Notes under the pieces: model-generated
Databases searched by the model: none
Seen by the model: the letters and a program-made list of their open reading frames with translations, nothing else
Told to the model about the DNA's origin: nothing
Program-made: the position numbers and the translations under genes
Source: an uncultured bacterium
GTDB taxonomy: Bacteria > Cyanobacteriota > Vampirovibrionia > Gastranaerophilales > Gastranaerophilaceae
Direction: 5' to 3'
Assembly: GCA_949284985.1 (NCBI GenBank)
Contig: CASDWY010000005.1
Span: forward strand, 62,001-126,000
DNA length: 64,000 nucleotides
Part shown: positions 23,145 to 46,664 of the stretch, one piece after another
How the letters are laid out: each line of letters opens with the position of its first letter
Position numbering within the stretch: the stretch's first letter is position 1

Positions 23145-24812
23145 TTAAACTTCAAAAAGACTGTGAATCTTTTCCATAATTTCTTCTTCAGTTAAATCCC
23201 AAGATATTCGATTTAGCTCGAGCGCTTTTTGATAATATTTTGCAGCAACAGTGTTATGGAGTAGAATTTGTTCGGCACGTCCTGCGTTGAAATAAGCAAG
23301 AGCATAATTTTCATTTATATTAATGGCTTCTTTAAATAATCTAAGTGCTTCTTTTGTGTTACCAATTCCATCGAGATAAATAACTCCAAGATTGTTGTAT
23401 GCAATATCATATTGAGAATTAAAAGAAATAGCTTTGTTGTAAGCAATAATAGCTTCTTCGATGTAATCTTTTTCCCATAAAGCAATTCCCATTTTACAAT
23501 AAGCACGAGCATTGTCAGGAGCTAGTTTTATAGCCTCGCAATATGCATTTATAGCACTGTCTAGGTCGTCGCAATCCAAATACAAATCTCCTATTGCAAT
23601 ATATGCATCAAAACTGTTAGGATCAAGTACCAGCGCTGTTTGATATAATGTTAAAGCAGCATCTGGGTTTTCTTTGATTTGCAGATAAATTGAACCAAGT
23701 GCTTGGCATACAATAGAAGTCCATTCGTTGTCAGGATTTGCGTTTATTGCATATTGATAATGTTCTATTGCATCATCGTATTGTTCTGCTTGAAGCAAAG
23801 CAAATGCAAGACTATTGTGATAAAAAGGATTGTCTTCGTCCTTCTCAAGGGCAAGTTTAAAGGCATTTATGGAGTTTATAATGTCTTTTTTGTTAACATA
23901 AAGATGACCAAGTTCATAATAAATTCGGGAGTTATCCGGTTCAAGGTCAAGTAATTTTGTATAACAGTCAATTGCTTCATCTGTGCGTTCTTCAAAATGT
24001 GTTTGTAAAAGTGTTGCAGTTTTAATAAGTGCTTCACGATTGTATGGGTTTGATTGTAAAACTCGTTTGTATGCATCGAGAGCAATTTCCGGTGCAGAGT
24101 TTCTTAATGATACATCTCCAATTTTTTCGTAAAAAAGTTCATTTCTTCCGGTTTTTTCTGCAGCTATGTCATAAGTTTTTACAGCAAGTGAGTCTTTGTT
24201 AAATTTTTGTAAAATGTTTCCTGTCCATTTATAAGCCATGACAGAAAAATTATCAGTAAAATTTTTATAAAGCATGCGCATTGTAGGATAATCAAGGAGT
24301 ATCATGAGGCTACCTGAGCACATATAGTAAACGCTTTTTATAAAATCAACGAAGCCAGCTTTTTGATTGTGCATTTTTTGAAGCAGCATAATCCCAAGTA
24401 CAACTCTTGCGCGGGCTGAGTTAAAGGGCATAAGTTTCATTGCTTTGGTAAATTCTTTTTCAGCTTCTTCAAATTTTTCAGCTAGTTTTAAAAAATATCC
24501 TGTATAAAGATGTGCATTGTAGTTTTTTGGATCAAGTTTTAGAGCTTCTTTGCATTGTTCTATAGCTGTTTCGATACCTATTTGCCCATCTTCAAACAAT
24601 AAACTAGCTAATCTATAGTATGTTTCCGGCATTTCAGGAGATGTTTTGATTGTTTGAATATAGTAATCTAATGCTTCGTTAAGATCATCGTGCGAAAGCC
24701 TTAGTAGATATCTTTCGTGAGCTTTTCTGGCAAGTTCCAGAGTTTGGGATCCATTTGTCTTTAATTGATTATCCGCGCTTAGGGGTATTGTTTTATCTTT
24801 TTGCTTAAGCAT
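23145..24812 (-). CDS. Tetratricopeptide-repeat protein
   Basis: A 555-residue soluble protein built almost entirely of TPR units from about residue 60 to 545. Clear copies contain YYRLASLLFEDG, YYELGHLYVNKKD, AYIAIGDLYLDCDD, AYCKMGIALWEKD and AYNNLGVIYLDG. TPR solenoids bind other proteins, so it is probably a scaffold, but no catalytic domain shows a partner. No signal peptide is visible. The ATG follows GAGG by six bases. CATAAC/GTTATG near the ribosome binding site could pair in the leader. It is downstream of the 24909-25394 gene on the same strand. Confidence 0.92.
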   Translation of the reverse strand: MLKQKDKTIPLSADNQLKTNGSQTLELARKAHERYLLRLSHDDLNEALDYYIQTIKTSPEMPETYYRLASLLFEDGQIGIETAIEQCKEALKLDPKNYNAHLYTGYFLKLAEKFEEAEKEFTKAMKLMPFNSARARVVLGIMLLQKMHNQKAGFVDFIKSVYYMCSGSLMILLDYPTMRMLYKNFTDNFSVMAYKWTGNILQKFNKDSLAVKTYDIAAEKTGRNELFYEKIGDVSLRNSAPEIALDAYKRVLQSNPYNREALIKTATLLQTHFEERTDEAIDCYTKLLDLEPDNSRIYYELGHLYVNKKDIINSINAFKLALEKDEDNPFYHNSLAFALLQAEQYDDAIEHYQYAINANPDNEWTSIVCQALGSIYLQIKENPDAALTLYQTALVLDPNSFDAYIAIGDLYLDCDDLDSAINAYCEAIKLAPDNARAYCKMGIALWEKDYIEEAIIAYNKAISFNSQYDIAYNNLGVIYLDGIGNTKEALRLFKEAININENYALAYFNAGRAEQILLHNTVAAKYYQKALELNRISWDLTEEEIMEKIHSLFEV

Positions 24813-42537: not shown

Positions 42538-42567
42538 AAATAAACTGTCCGGTAGGACAGTTTATTT
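42538..42567 (-). terminator. Terminator of the five-gene cluster, overlapping the last stop codon
   Basis: AAATAAACTGTCC (42538-42550), loop GGTA, GGACAGTTTATTT (42555-42567): a perfect 13-base stem followed on the minus strand by TTTTAGTATAT. The stop codon of the 42566-42889 gene is inside the stem. Confidence 0.85.
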
Positions 42568-42889
42568 AATATTTAAAAGTTCTTTGAATATTTTTGTCTA
42601 TCATTTGTTCACAAGATTGATATTCTGTTTCTATAGCTTTTAGTCGTGTTTTGTATTGTTCCATTTGCATATCCAGTTTCTTTTCAAGCAGATAAAGCCG
42701 TTCTTTTCGTTGCTCTAGTTTTTTTACTACAGGTGAATCCGGCTCAAGATCGGTTCCTACGTTTACCAAATCTGTTATTGTTCGTCCGAGATTCATTTTG
42801 GCATCTGCAATAAGTTGGACTTTGTATTCTAGATCCAATCTTTCTGCATTTAGCTGCATTAACCTTATTGTTGCTACTGCGTAACCCAT
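42566..42889 (-). CDS. Small coiled-coil protein sharing the ends of the 44324 and 45518 proteins
   Basis: A 107-residue, wholly helical protein. The N-terminus (MGYAVATIRLMQLNAERLDL) and the C-terminus (YQSCEQMIDKNIQRTFKY) follow the same pattern as the two larger paralogs (MG-x-x-A, R(F/L)-x-L-x-A-(R/E)-(K/R), and MDAVKKVIDKNVENTFKTFA), but the 200-residue middle is missing. It could be a minimal family member, a chaperone or a filament cap; none is shown. AGGTAGG precedes the ATG, five bases after the gene upstream. It is the last gene before the terminator. Confidence 0.8.
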   Translation of the reverse strand: MGYAVATIRLMQLNAERLDLEYKVQLIADAKMNLGRTITDLVNVGTDLEPDSPVVKKLEQRKERLYLLEKKLDMQMEQYKTRLKAIETEYQSCEQMIDKNIQRTFKY

Positions 42890-42894
42890 TTTAC

Positions 42895-43167
42895 CTACCT
42901 AAGTTCATTGATTTTTTTGCCTCTTAGAAACACGTGCTCATTGTTCTCAGCAATAAGTTGTTCCATTTGACGAAGTTTAAATTGTTGATAGTTAACTCTG
43001 TATTGAGCCATTTTGAGTTTTTTCTTTACTGTAAAAATGTCTTTGAGAGTAGTTGTTATTGATTTTTTAATTGATGCTATTAGATTTTGTCTTCTCAAAA
43101 AGCCTTTCGCAAAATTTGTGAAGTTGATAAATCTTTGGAGATTAGTCATCAATGTTTGTTGTAACAT
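42895..43167 (-). CDS. Small basic helical protein of unknown function
   Basis: A 90-residue Lys/Gln-rich helical protein (MLQQTLMTNLQRF to GKKINELR) without membrane segment or known motif. The later half (MAQYRVNYQQFKLRQMEQLI) is a likely coiled coil. I start it at 43167, where AAAGG lies five to six bases upstream, rather than at in-frame upstream Met codons. It is followed five bases later by the 107-residue coiled-coil gene and is probably translated from the same mRNA. Confidence 0.75.
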   Translation of the reverse strand: MLQQTLMTNLQRFINFTNFAKGFLRRQNLIASIKKSITTTLKDIFTVKKKLKMAQYRVNYQQFKLRQMEQLIAENNEHVFLRGKKINELR

Positions 43168-43274
43168 TTTTACCTTTACTTTCCACAAAGATAAACTCAT
43201 GAATATAAACACTGTTTATCTTTATTTATTGCTTAATTTCTACTGAATTGTAAATATTCTTAACATTGTTATAT

Positions 43275-43433
43275 TTACATTGGGCAGGTAAAAATAATAA
43301 TAGTTTTACCCTGTAAATTATTAATCGGTTTTTTGGGCATTTTCTTTATTAGAAATTTATCAAAACCAAGGTTTTTGAAATAAAAATTTACAATATTATC
43401 TAAGAGCCAAGAATAGAGAATTCTATGCTTCAT
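43275..43433 (-). CDS. Small basic protein (52 residues)
   Basis: A short gene accepted mainly for its excellent ribosome binding site: AGGAGG (43439-43444) five bases before ATG 43433. The product is basic and aromatic (SWLLDNIVNFYFKNLGF) and ends IIIFTCPM. It could be membrane-peripheral. A longer frame starting at 43505 would overlap the upstream gene and is less likely. It lies between the Gly/Ala-rich gene and the 90-residue gene of the same cluster. Confidence 0.55.
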   Translation of the reverse strand: MKHRILYSWLLDNIVNFYFKNLGFDKFLIKKMPKKPINNLQGKTIIIFTCPM

Positions 43434-43470
43434 TTTTCCTCCTATACATATCCGTCTTTTATTATTGGAG

Positions 43471-44283
43471 TTACATATTTTGAATAGTTTTGCTATCACC
43501 TTCAATAGATTCTTTAAGCATTTTCTTTAGAACATCACCTTGTGCATCAAGCATTTTAACAACAGTTTCAATATTTCTAACCTTGTTGCTTAAAATTGTA
43601 TCAGCATTTGATGTAATGTTTCCAGTGACTCTTTGGTATGCTGCTAAAGCAGAGGAAGAAGTTCCTTGCATTAGGTTACCTATTACAGTAGCAGGAAGCC
43701 CGAATGCATCCAGATAAGGCGCAGCAGCTTGTAAAATTCCGCCCCAGCCTGATATAACACCAGCTGCAGGGAGTATCCAGTTGTTTCCAAATCCAAAACC
43801 GGTACCTGCGCCAACTCCATAGGCTGCAGCATTTAACCCTGCCATTCCGGCAATATCACTAGCGAGGCTCATGCTTGCTGCAGCACCTGTTGCTACACCA
43901 GAGGAAGAGCCAAACCCCCATTGGATTGGAGCAGCTCCGCTTGGAAAACCTGGATAATTACCAAGGTTGCTTGTCCCAAAGGCAGAATTCGAACCATCCC
44001 ATATTACGTTTCCACCGCTTGATGGTGTCCAGTATGATGTTCCAGGAATATTCATTGTTGTATTGCCGCCCATAACAGTCATAAATGAGCTTGGTGCAAT
44101 TAATCTTGCTATTTCCCATAAAAAATTTCCTGCAGTTCCAAAACCGCTTCCATCCATTGCAGAACCACTTACTGTTAAGTCACGTAAACGATCATATGTT
44201 TCAAATAAGTGTGCTTTTGCATCACTTGATGCTTTTGAAAATTTGTTTGCTATTACTAAGTATGAATCATTTTTGTAAGACAT
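43471..44283 (-). CDS. Gly/Ala/Ser-rich protein with helical ends, possible exported or translocator-like protein
   Basis: A 270-residue protein with no recognised family. A charged helical N-terminus (about 1-40) leads to a long Gly/Ser/Asn/Pro-rich centre (about 40-135). A hydrophobic Ala/Gly-rich zone (about 130-185) follows, then a predicted amphipathic C-terminal helix (NKVRNIETVVKMLDAQGDVL). Helical ends around a hydrophobic, small-residue centre are reminiscent of type III translocators, but this is only an analogy. There is no signal peptide. GAGGG precedes the ATG. It follows the 44324 gene by 40 bases with no terminator between. Confidence 0.75.
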   Translation of the reverse strand: MSYKNDSYLVIANKFSKASSDAKAHLFETYDRLRDLTVSGSAMDGSGFGTAGNFLWEIARLIAPSSFMTVMGGNTTMNIPGTSYWTPSSGGNVIWDGSNSAFGTSNLGNYPGFPSGAAPIQWGFGSSSGVATGAAASMSLASDIAGMAGLNAAAYGVGAGTGFGFGNNWILPAAGVISGWGGILQAAAPYLDAFGLPATVIGNLMQGTSSSALAAYQRVTGNITSNADTILSNKVRNIETVVKMLDAQGDVLKKMLKESIEGDSKTIQNM

Positions 44284-44323
44284 TTTAACCCTCGTGTTAT
44301 CCTATTAGTTATTTTTAATGTTT

Positions 44324-45286
44324 TTATGCAAAAGTCTTGAATGTATTTTCAACGTTTTTATCAATAACTTTTTTGACTGCATCCATTTCTGTTTGGAGTG
44401 CTTCTTGTTCTGTATCAAGTTGTTTTAATCTAAGTTCAAGAGTTCTGTCTTGAGCTTGGATTACTTCTGTTTTTGCGTTGATATCAGCAATTGTTTTGTC
44501 GTATACCATTTTTTCATAGTTGTAGTCTTGCATTGCTTTATCATATCCGGCATCGTCTGAAACTTCTTCAAGTCCGAGTGAATATTGGCTTCCATCAGGA
44601 AGTGTTATGTAGCTGAATTTTCCTGTTGAATCAGCAATAAGATTTACGTTGTTGTAGGTTGTATCTTGAACTTGTTTAGAGTTATCTTGCCTATAGGCAT
44701 TCATTATGCCGCTGTAGCCGGTTTCTGTTGCGTGGTTGAGTACTTCGGCTTCAGTCATGTAATAGTTTGCACCGTCTCTGTTGTATGAATAATATTTTGT
44801 ATCTGCAGGTAAGCCTTTTTCTTCGGATAAGGTTGTATTTACTGTTGGACCAACCATTGCATATTCTGTTGAACTAGCTCCAAAACGCATAAAATAGCTT
44901 GTTTGACCGGATTGTGAATCTGTTTTGGAATATAGTGTTTGAATAATTTGTGTTTGTGGATTTTCGTTTAAAACTATATCAGTGTATTTTACTACGTCGT
45001 AAGCTGTTCTTACAGTTACATCATATGCCCCTGCTTGAGTTGAACTTGCTGTGTAGTTGATTATTTCGTACTCTTGACCGTTTTGTTCATATGAGTATCT
45101 CATGTTATAGTAATCTGTTGCAGATGGAGGAACAGGAACTTGTAAAGTTAACATTTGATTGAATAAGCCTGCACTTTGATTTGATAGGGCAGTACGTTGT
45201 TGGTTAACTTGTTGTCCTTCATACTCTGTATTGGTTTTTCTTGCTGTTAAGCCTAGAAATCTGGCTTGTGATGCTGCCATTCCCAT
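44324..45286 (-). CDS. Sigma-28-type controlled protein with conserved helical ends (copy A)
   Basis: A 320-residue protein whose first 52 residues (MGMAASQARFLGLTARK, QQVNQQRTALSNQSAGLF) and last 75 (GYDKAMQDYNYEKMVYDKTI, ending VIDKNVENTFKTFA) are nearly the same as in the 45518 protein, while the middle differs. The ends are predicted helices and coiled coils; the middle looks beta-rich. This resembles the layout of flagellin and other axial proteins, although no flagellin signature is visible. GGAG lies ten bases before the ATG. A sigma-28-like promoter lies upstream. It is the first gene of a probable five-gene operon. Confidence 0.85.
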   Translation of the reverse strand: MGMAASQARFLGLTARKTNTEYEGQQVNQQRTALSNQSAGLFNQMLTLQVPVPPSATDYYNMRYSYEQNGQEYEIINYTASSTQAGAYDVTVRTAYDVVKYTDIVLNENPQTQIIQTLYSKTDSQSGQTSYFMRFGASSTEYAMVGPTVNTTLSEEKGLPADTKYYSYNRDGANYYMTEAEVLNHATETGYSGIMNAYRQDNSKQVQDTTYNNVNLIADSTGKFSYITLPDGSQYSLGLEEVSDDAGYDKAMQDYNYEKMVYDKTIADINAKTEVIQAQDRTLELRLKQLDTEQEALQTEMDAVKKVIDKNVENTFKTFA

Positions 45287-45326
45287 TTTATTTTATCTCC
45301 ATGTTTTTCCACTTTTTACATATTGT

Positions 45327-45354
45327 TAATCGGCATAAACATCTAAAAACTTTA
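45327..45354 (-). promoter_or_regulatory. Sigma-28-like promoter for the 44324-42566 operon
   Basis: On the minus strand TAAAGTTT (45347-45354), 12 bases, GCCGATTA (45327-45334), against the flagellar class III consensus TAAAGTTT-N11-GCCGATAA. Counted from TAAA the spacing is 16, inside the 14-16 range known for sigma-D. The predicted start near 45320 leaves a 34-base leader with GGAG. Confidence 0.75.
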
Positions 45355-45422
45355 GAGGATGAAGTAATACCTTTACTTTTCTTTACATTAGTATAAATTA
45401 TTCTATAACACTTTTCTAACAT

Positions 45423-45470
45423 AAAAAGCACCCATTAAACCTTTATATTTTGTGTTTAAGGATGCTTTTT
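45423..45470 (-). terminator. Terminator after the copy B gene
   Basis: On the minus strand the arms AAAAAGCATCCTTAAAC and GTTTAATGGGTGCTTTTT pair with two small mismatches around a loop of about 13 bases; the distal arm ends in five T's. It lies 48 bases after the 45518 gene, so copy A depends on its own promoter. Confidence 0.75.
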
Positions 45471-45517
45471 TAAAAGTCAACATATATTGTTTATTTAGTT
45501 TGCATTTTATTAAAATT

Positions 45518-46561
45518 TTAAGCAAATGTTTTGAATGTATTTTCAACGTTTTTATCGATAACTTTTTTAACAGAATCCATTTCTGTTTGGATGGCTTCTT
45601 GCTCTGTATCAAGTTGTTTTAAGTGTAATTCAAGGTTTTTATCTTGTTGTTGAATAATTTCTGTACGAGTATTTATATCGTCTATAGTTCTATCGTAGAG
45701 CATTTTTTTGTAGTTGTAGTCTTGCATTGCTTTATCATAACCTTCATCGTCATGGATTTCTTCAATAACAAGTTCTGTTTCTTTCATGCTTGAAGGATCA
45801 TTTGTTGGTGAATACTTCATGCCTGTAAATCTGCCTGTATCATCTGTTTCCATTGTTACTCCAATGTAGGTTATATATTCAACTGTTTTTTCACCTTTGT
45901 AGTAGGATTCTTCTGTATCTTCTTGATTTTCTTTAGTAATATGTGCAGTCTTTGTACCAGTTTGTTCAGTTACATTGAATTTGTCACTTTGTTCACCAAA
46001 CATGTTATTTAATAATTCTTCTGATACAAAATATGTTCTTCCACCGCGTTGATAGCTGTAGCTTGGAATATAGGTGTCTTTTCCGTCTTCTTTTTTAACG
46101 CCGTTAACATCTTTATCAGATTTAGTTAATTCATATGTAATCATGCGTCCATCGCTATCAGGAATTGCCATAGTATATATTGGGCTTCCTGCAGAATCAA
46201 CTTCATCTGAAAGACTTATAGTTGTTCCAACAGCCATTTCTGGTGTTTTTATACCAACGTCGTTAATTGTCTTTTTAACTTCAACGTTGTAGGCACCCAT
46301 TGAAGGATCAGAACTTGTTCCCCAAGATAAAATTCTGCATTCTTCATTTGATGCTTCACCAGGGAAAGTATATGCCATGCTGTAAAAATCTGTAGCTGAT
46401 GGCGGAGTTGGAACTTGTAATGCCAACATTTGGTTAAACAAACCCGCACTTTCGTTTGCAAGAGATGTGCGCTGTTGGTTAACTTGTTGACCTTGAAATT
46501 CAACGTTGGATTTTCTTGCGGTAAGCCCAAGAAATCTTGCTTGTGATGCTGACATACCCAT
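45518..46561 (-). CDS. Sigma-28-type controlled protein with conserved helical ends (copy B)
   Basis: A 347-residue paralog of the 44324 product. The ends match (MGMSASQARFLGLTARK; C-terminal VIDKNVENTFKTFA) and the middle (about 75-255) is unrelated in sequence, Asp/Thr/Ser/Gly-rich and probably beta-structured. Over the last 35 codons the two genes differ at about 10 of 105 bases, so the ends are either recently duplicated or kept alike by recombination. GGAG precedes the ATG. No signal peptide or Cys is needed for a Sec route, fitting type III export, but export is not shown. Confidence 0.85.
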   Translation of the reverse strand: MGMSASQARFLGLTARKSNVEFQGQQVNQQRTSLANESAGLFNQMLALQVPTPPSATDFYSMAYTFPGEASNEECRILSWGTSSDPSMGAYNVEVKKTINDVGIKTPEMAVGTTISLSDEVDSAGSPIYTMAIPDSDGRMITYELTKSDKDVNGVKKEDGKDTYIPSYSYQRGGRTYFVSEELLNNMFGEQSDKFNVTEQTGTKTAHITKENQEDTEESYYKGEKTVEYITYIGVTMETDDTGRFTGMKYSPTNDPSSMKETELVIEEIHDDEGYDKAMQDYNYKKMLYDRTIDDINTRTEIIQQQDKNLELHLKQLDTEQEAIQTEMDSVKKVIDKNVENTFKTFA

Positions 46562-46598
46562 AATCCGATACTCCTTATTGTACTTACTTGTGTTATAA

Positions 46599-46625
46599 CT
46601 ATCGGAATTTAAATGTCAAACTTTA
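46599..46625 (-). promoter_or_regulatory. Sigma-28-like promoter for copy B, overlapping a sigma-70-like site
   Basis: On the minus strand TAAAGTTT (46618-46625), exactly 11 bases, TCCGATAG (46599-46606): a full match in the -35 and six of eight in the -10. An overlapping TTGACA (46614-46619), 16 bases, TATAAC (46592-46597) could be read by the housekeeping sigma. CCGATA also recurs inverted beside the ribosome binding site (46565-46570). Confidence 0.75.
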
Positions 46626-46664
46626 GGATTTTAATTTTATTGTAACATTTTTGTTACAAATATA

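Follow-up and report, generated by a model that had tools for sequence, protein, structure and literature searches.

Sigma-28-type promoters precede a paralogous gene family in Gastranaerophilales that may serve a second, non-swimming type III export machine

In flagellated bacteria the core genes of the flagellum are expressed early, and the late exported parts depend on the sigma factor FliA (sigma-28), whose class III promoters have the consensus TAAAGTTT-N11-GCCGATAA. Sigma-28 is usually read as a marker of flagella; non-flagellar FliA targets occur in other bacteria. Flagellins and hook-associated proteins, which are under FliA control, share an arrangement of terminal helices around a variable middle domain.

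Several described systems resemble the one reported here. Non-flagellated Legionella, such as L. oakridgensis, have kept FliA; the whole flagellar regulon is reported to be absent there, save for FliA and FlgM homologs (PMC5655016). A secretin-less type III system of Myxococcales has no FlgBC or FliE (Abby and Rocha 2012, PMC3459982). Genomes of Gastranaerophilales contain full or partial flagellar gene sets, and the partial set has been interpreted as flagella loss or genome reduction (Di Rienzi 2013, PMC3787301; Soo 2014, PMC4040986; PMC5877343). A search of the literature available without subscription found neither a second type III system nor regulation by FliA described for Gastranaerophilales.

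The window analysed here is a stretch of 64,000 nucleotides from a Gastranaerophilales genome of 1.78 Mb (35 contigs, 99.9% complete). It contains a block of genes on the minus strand with the following features.

46625-46599, minus strand: sigma-28 type promoter of copy B, TAAAGTTT-N11-TCCGATAG, 37 bp from the end of the -10 element to the ATG (-35 element TAAAGTTT at 46625-46618, 11 nt, -10 element TCCGATAG at 46606-46599)
46561-45518, minus strand: copy B, 347 aa, member of the paralog family
45470-45423, minus strand: terminator-like hairpin between B and A, with a long stem, a 13-nt loop and a T run
45354-45327, minus strand: sigma-28 type promoter of copy A, TAAAGTTT-N12-GCCGATTA, 40 bp from the end of the -10 element to the ATG (-35 element TAAAGTTT at 45354-45347, 12 nt, -10 element GCCGATTA at 45334-45327)
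45286-44324, minus strand: copy A, 320 aa, paralog with 48-53% identity to B
44283-43471, minus strand: companion protein, 270 aa, beginning 40 nt past A
43348-43322, minus strand: weaker sigma-28 like box, TAAAGAAA-N11-ACCGATTA, upstream of the 105-aa gene
43212-42895, minus strand: small protein, 105 aa as called, conserved member of the block; its true length is probably about 90 aa, from an internal ATG
42889-42566, minus strand: 107-aa relative of the paralog family, with the conserved N- and C-terminal parts only and without the middle domain

The boxes of copies A and B agree with the FliA consensus at all eight positions of the -35 element and at six (B) or seven (A) of the eight positions of the -10 element, and both fall within the definition of a FliA promoter used here [-35 TAAA(GTTT), -10 (G)CCGAT(AA), spacer of 10-12 nt]. 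A sequence-only reading of this DNA had proposed both as sigma-28-like promoters; the boxes are present as it wrote them, on the minus strand, and only their placement needs amending, since the positions 45518 and 44324 that it gave are the 3' ends of the two genes. Its observation that the fliJ operon has no comparable site is borne out by a best score of 9.8 there. The hairpin that separates B from A is terminator-like (-17.9 kcal/mol, z -4.0), so that copy A would need a promoter of its own. The box of the copy B ortholog was also found in two relatives of the same genus (L068 and L069).

Two further sites in the window lie outside these promoters. A perfect palindrome, TTGTAACA-AAAA-TGTTACAA (46640-46659), lies in the gap that separates the end of an SNF2-type helicase gene from the copy B promoter, 14 bp ahead of the -35 element, and could be an operator or a weak terminator. 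On the minus strand at 24872-24846, TAAATTTT-N11-GCCGTTAC lies 33 bp before a gene for a 555-aa TPR-like protein (23145-24812); this gene is possibly another FliA target, since the -10 variant GCCGT also precedes some of the paralogs.

The sequence-only reading had expected a FliA homolog elsewhere in the genome and had named a genome without any FliA-type sigma factor as the finding that would speak against it; the genome encodes a full-length FliA (TIGR02479, 238 bits against a cut-off of 189.6). A genome-wide search with the exact pattern TAAAGTTTN{11,12}NCCGAT gave five sites and none for the reversed control. Three of these precede members of the paralog family, namely A, B and one of 264 aa on contig 29; the remaining two are followed by ORFs of 57 and 67 aa. 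Allowing two mismatches gave no clear enrichment over the reversed control (88/113 versus 85/98), so that a box has to be near-exact to be informative. When 214 kb of the same genome were scanned with a weight matrix based on the textbook consensus, the seven top-ranking sites were those that precede four large paralogs (A, B, C29 and C16), one flagellin gene and two short ORFs, a ranking that speaks for specificity and is not a random sample, since the 214 kb had been picked around flagellin, FliA, paralog and pattern matches. The comparison with flagellin genes that had been suggested yields one case, a near-exact box (TAAAGTAT-N11-GCCGATTA) 38 bp before the ATG of one of the five Flagellin_N genes (C13). 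A FliA-type box also lies 26-31 bp upstream of the gene for a conserved 51-aa protein (..NI.[ED]GVEF.LRGAKKRRSMAIAS..), both in this flagellated genome (C28:45043-45068, L022) and in the flagellin-less genome G077 (L319).

Conservation of the box was examined upstream of 109 full-length homologs. A score of at least 16 was found for 51 of them (25/57 in flagellin-bearing and 26/52 in flagellin-less genomes) and in none of the shuffled or reversed upstream regions, the shuffle being one of two-base blocks and hence cruder than a full dinucleotide-preserving shuffle. For 77 of the 109, the distance between the best box and the ATG is 25-50 bp, against an expectation of 8.8 for a uniform distribution. 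These 77 sites give the consensus TAAAGTTT-N12-GCCGATAA; N12 is the commoner spacing in this lineage (60/77) and the spacer of copy A is thus not odd. In a second set, taken from named genomes and in part overlapping the first, 29 of 79 loci score at least 16, and 38 of the 41 sites scoring above 12 sit 28-49 bp from the ATG. For 45 of the 109 homologs no box reaches a score of 12, and control by the box is consequently not universal in the family. The resemblance to the FliA class III promoters of flagellated bacteria extends to both elements, the distance to the gene, a FliA in the genome and a flagellin gene with the box; the differences are that N12 is the commoner spacing here and that the main conserved target family is non-flagellar and persists where flagellin is absent. 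With FliA encoded, a boxed flagellin gene in the same genome and the box conserved before homologs in many genera, the assignment of these sites to the FliA type stands, and the two promoters are very probably functional.

We followed the distribution of these elements through 146 Gastranaerophilales genomes, all of the same family. The paralog family is present in 145, FliA above the cut-off in 140 and flagellin in 59; paralogs occur in 86 of the 87 genomes in which flagellin is absent, absence here being judged from Pfam searches of draft genomes (77 of the 126 good-quality ones are without flagellin). The loss of flagellin agrees with the loss of the flagellar-class FlhA and FliP described below. 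Exact boxes number 966 over the 146 genomes, against 43 for the reversed control: 413 in the 59 flagellin-bearing genomes (control 20) and 553 in the 87 flagellin-less genomes (control 23). The proposal that the paralogs belong to the late flagellar regulon is not supported by this comparison and appears too narrow: the family, FliA and the box persist in the genomes without flagellin, near a second type III export system. The situation recalls that of L. oakridgensis in that FliA is kept without flagella and needs other targets, but here a large second set of export and rod genes is kept as well, and among the targets is a family that is linked to this set. One flagellin-bearing genome (G127) has a greatly enlarged regulon, with 33 exact FliA-type boxes (mean about 7, control 0).

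Boxes are frequent at members of the paralog family and also, at a longer distance, at the 90-105-aa gene; many of the 24 loci orthologous to that of the 105-aa gene have one at a comparable position. The core machine genes tested (rod operon, fliE, fliM-like and fliA) had no box, which is what a restriction of FliA to late genes would predict. In the flagellin-less genome G077, 15 of the 16 exact boxes have an ORF within about 100 bp downstream, including a family member, an HD-domain protein with GAF, large EF-hand-like proteins of ~500 aa and many short ORFs. Large proteins (about 490-505 aa or more) were also observed behind FliA-type boxes at L313, L315, L317 and L329 in flagellin-less genomes; three of the four give weak EF-hand matches, and they are candidate exported proteins.

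Matches to FHIPEP (FlhA) fall into two classes, one of 847-885 bits, found in 58 genomes that all bear flagellin, and one near 720-735 bits, found in genomes both with and without flagellin. At least one FlhA is present in 145 of the 146 genomes, and 86 of the 87 flagellin-less genomes have a match. A second, divergent type III export gate was found in all 28 genomes tested. Among these 28, FliP occurs in two copies in nine flagellated genomes and in one copy in 18 flagellin-less genomes and in G083; none of the 18 flagellin-less genomes tested has a flagellar-class FliP. The genome studied here has both FliPs, and its FliP2 shares 75% identity with the FliP of a flagellin-less relative and 41% with its own flagellar FliP1. 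G083 has one flagellin match and neither a flagellar-class FlhA nor a flagellar-class FliP; its flagellin is apparently a leftover after loss of the flagellar export gate.

The genes of the second system are grouped in three clusters. Cluster 1 of the flagellin-less genomes G006 and G073 has the order family member, 272-aa companion, 90-aa protein and 108-110-aa protein, followed about 4-7 kb downstream of this block by fliE-fliF-[340 aa]-fliH-flhA2. The block at 42566-46561 of the window corresponds to the first part of this cluster, its three companions being 63%, 51% and 57% identical to their counterparts. The same linkage of the paralog block to fliE-fliF-fliH-flhA2 is seen in two loci from named genomes (L240 and L291), and in the flagellated genome G111 a FliI-like ATPase follows FlhA2. 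The 270-aa companion is conserved in the vicinity of a family member in 39 of 80 loci, with a mean column identity of 66%; its structure model (pLDDT 41) is unusable. The 340-aa protein, which occupies the position of FliG between fliF and fliH (L205:15294-16316; also L207, L240 and L291), has no Pfam match. Cluster 2 contains FliM/N-like, FliO, FliP, FliQ and FliR genes, and cluster 3 contains FlgF/G-, FlgB- and FlgC-like rod genes, in flagellin-less genomes at a distance of about 4 kb from FliA. Orthologs of clusters 2 and 3 are found on contigs 1 and 34 of the genome studied here, with 52-65% identity for the rod proteins.

The second system thus has the export core (FlhA/SctV, FliP/SctR, FliQ, FliR, FliI/SctN and FliF/SctJ) together with the rod proteins FlgB, FlgC and FliE, and does not show the absence of FlgB, FlgC and FliE that marks non-flagellar type III secretion systems (PMC3459982). 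As in the Myxococcales type, an export gate derived from the flagellum would be used apart from swimming; unlike that type, this system has FliE and rod proteins resembling FlgB, FlgC and FlgF/G, and its neighbouring genes are served by FliA promoters. The organisms are those of the published partial flagellar sets, but here the set appears to be a separate, conserved second system that is additional to the flagellar genes in flagellated relatives. A link between the family to which copies A and B belong and this export system appears reasonably likely.

The paralog family has no Pfam or NCBIfam match, including the Flagellin_N/C domains, and a sequence search of the PDB gave no name. An AlphaFold2 model of copy B from a 78-sequence alignment (mean pLDDT 88.5, pTM 0.59) consists of a long N-terminal helix (residues 2-47), a beta-rich middle (60-270) and a C-terminal helix (272-346), and the family alignments show conserved ends and a variable middle. 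The predicted layout is flagellin-like, with terminal helices that enclose a variable middle, and FliA control is a further likeness to flagellin and the hook-associated proteins; no sequence similarity or significant fold similarity to these was found. Profile comparison of the family with the flagellins of the same genome gave a probability of 1.4%, and the best Foldseek match of copy B in the PDB (FliC, E 0.014, TM about 0.1) is not significant, for which reasons the family is not filed under flagellin. Foldseek against viral models gave nothing usable. The suggestion that the family works in a flagellin-like manner draws on layout, linkage and regulation.

The persistence of promoters, sigma factor and family without flagellin, beside a second flagellum-like export machine, suggests that copies A and B probably encode components or cargo of a type III structure without a swimming function, and not flagellar parts. 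In the explanation that we prefer and regard as fairly probable as a whole, the subunits exported late by a rod-bearing type III machine, one that is not used for swimming, are under FliA control. Both boxes would be working FliA promoters, and FliA in this family would serve the flagellum and, in addition, the late class of the second machine, which would comprise its own gate (FlhA2 and FliP2/Q2/R2), FliH, a FliI-like ATPase, an M-ring and rod proteins, and no flagellin. Copies A and B, which we infer to be transcribed by FliA, would probably be late substrates that have a variable middle between conserved terminal helices and that exit via the channel of the machine, after which they may polymerise on the rod as a hook- or filament-like part or be released. 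A more specific version, in which Gastranaerophilales, common bacteria of animal guts, share a conserved second flagellum-derived machine (rod and export gate, no flagellin or motility role) and the near-universal A/B family forms its sigma-28-controlled external structure, in effect a substitute filament or hook whose tip varies strongly and which is kept where the flagellum was lost, is put forward tentatively, at somewhat less than even chances.

The promoters may also be real and the proteins cytoplasmic or envelope components of a wider FliA life-style programme, surface attachment for example. The mixed regulon of flagellin-less G077 (HD domain with GAF, EF-hand-like 500-aa proteins and short ORFs), the location of family members at several genomic sites and the retention of FliA in non-flagellated Legionella (PMC5655016) would all agree with such a programme, which we nevertheless consider unlikely: the paralog block is recurrently linked to the fliE-fliF-fliH-flhA2 cluster, the layout of helix, variable domain and helix fits late export substrates, and so does the lack of boxes at the core machine genes. 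Some family members may well act otherwise, since there are up to 18 matches per genome and some are distant from machine genes. That copies A and B are ordinary late flagellar proteins of flagellated species, such as a filament accessory or cap, is very improbable; they share their promoter class with one flagellin gene of a genome that has flagellar genes, but the family has no flagellar Pfam match and occurs in 86 of 87 genomes without flagellin, 18 of which, when tested, had no flagellar-class FliP. A simple flagellar role is largely refuted by this distribution. Least credible of all is that the boxes are chance matches or remnants and that transcription starts from sigma-70 promoters. 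Two weak sigma-70-like matches (46668-46639 and 46657-46628) do lie immediately upstream of the box of copy B, but such matches are no commoner than in shuffles (15 observed, 17.1 expected). Many genera retain both the position and the sequence of the sigma-28 box, which led us to reject a chance match.

Most members of this gut family that have no flagellin still possess sigma-28 and its promoters, tied to a gene family that has been left unannotated. If the proposed link to the second export system holds, the 'incomplete flagella' of these bacteria would be a functioning machine of a different kind. A candidate for its external part could then be named, and the promoter signature would list the regulon in any genome of the group.
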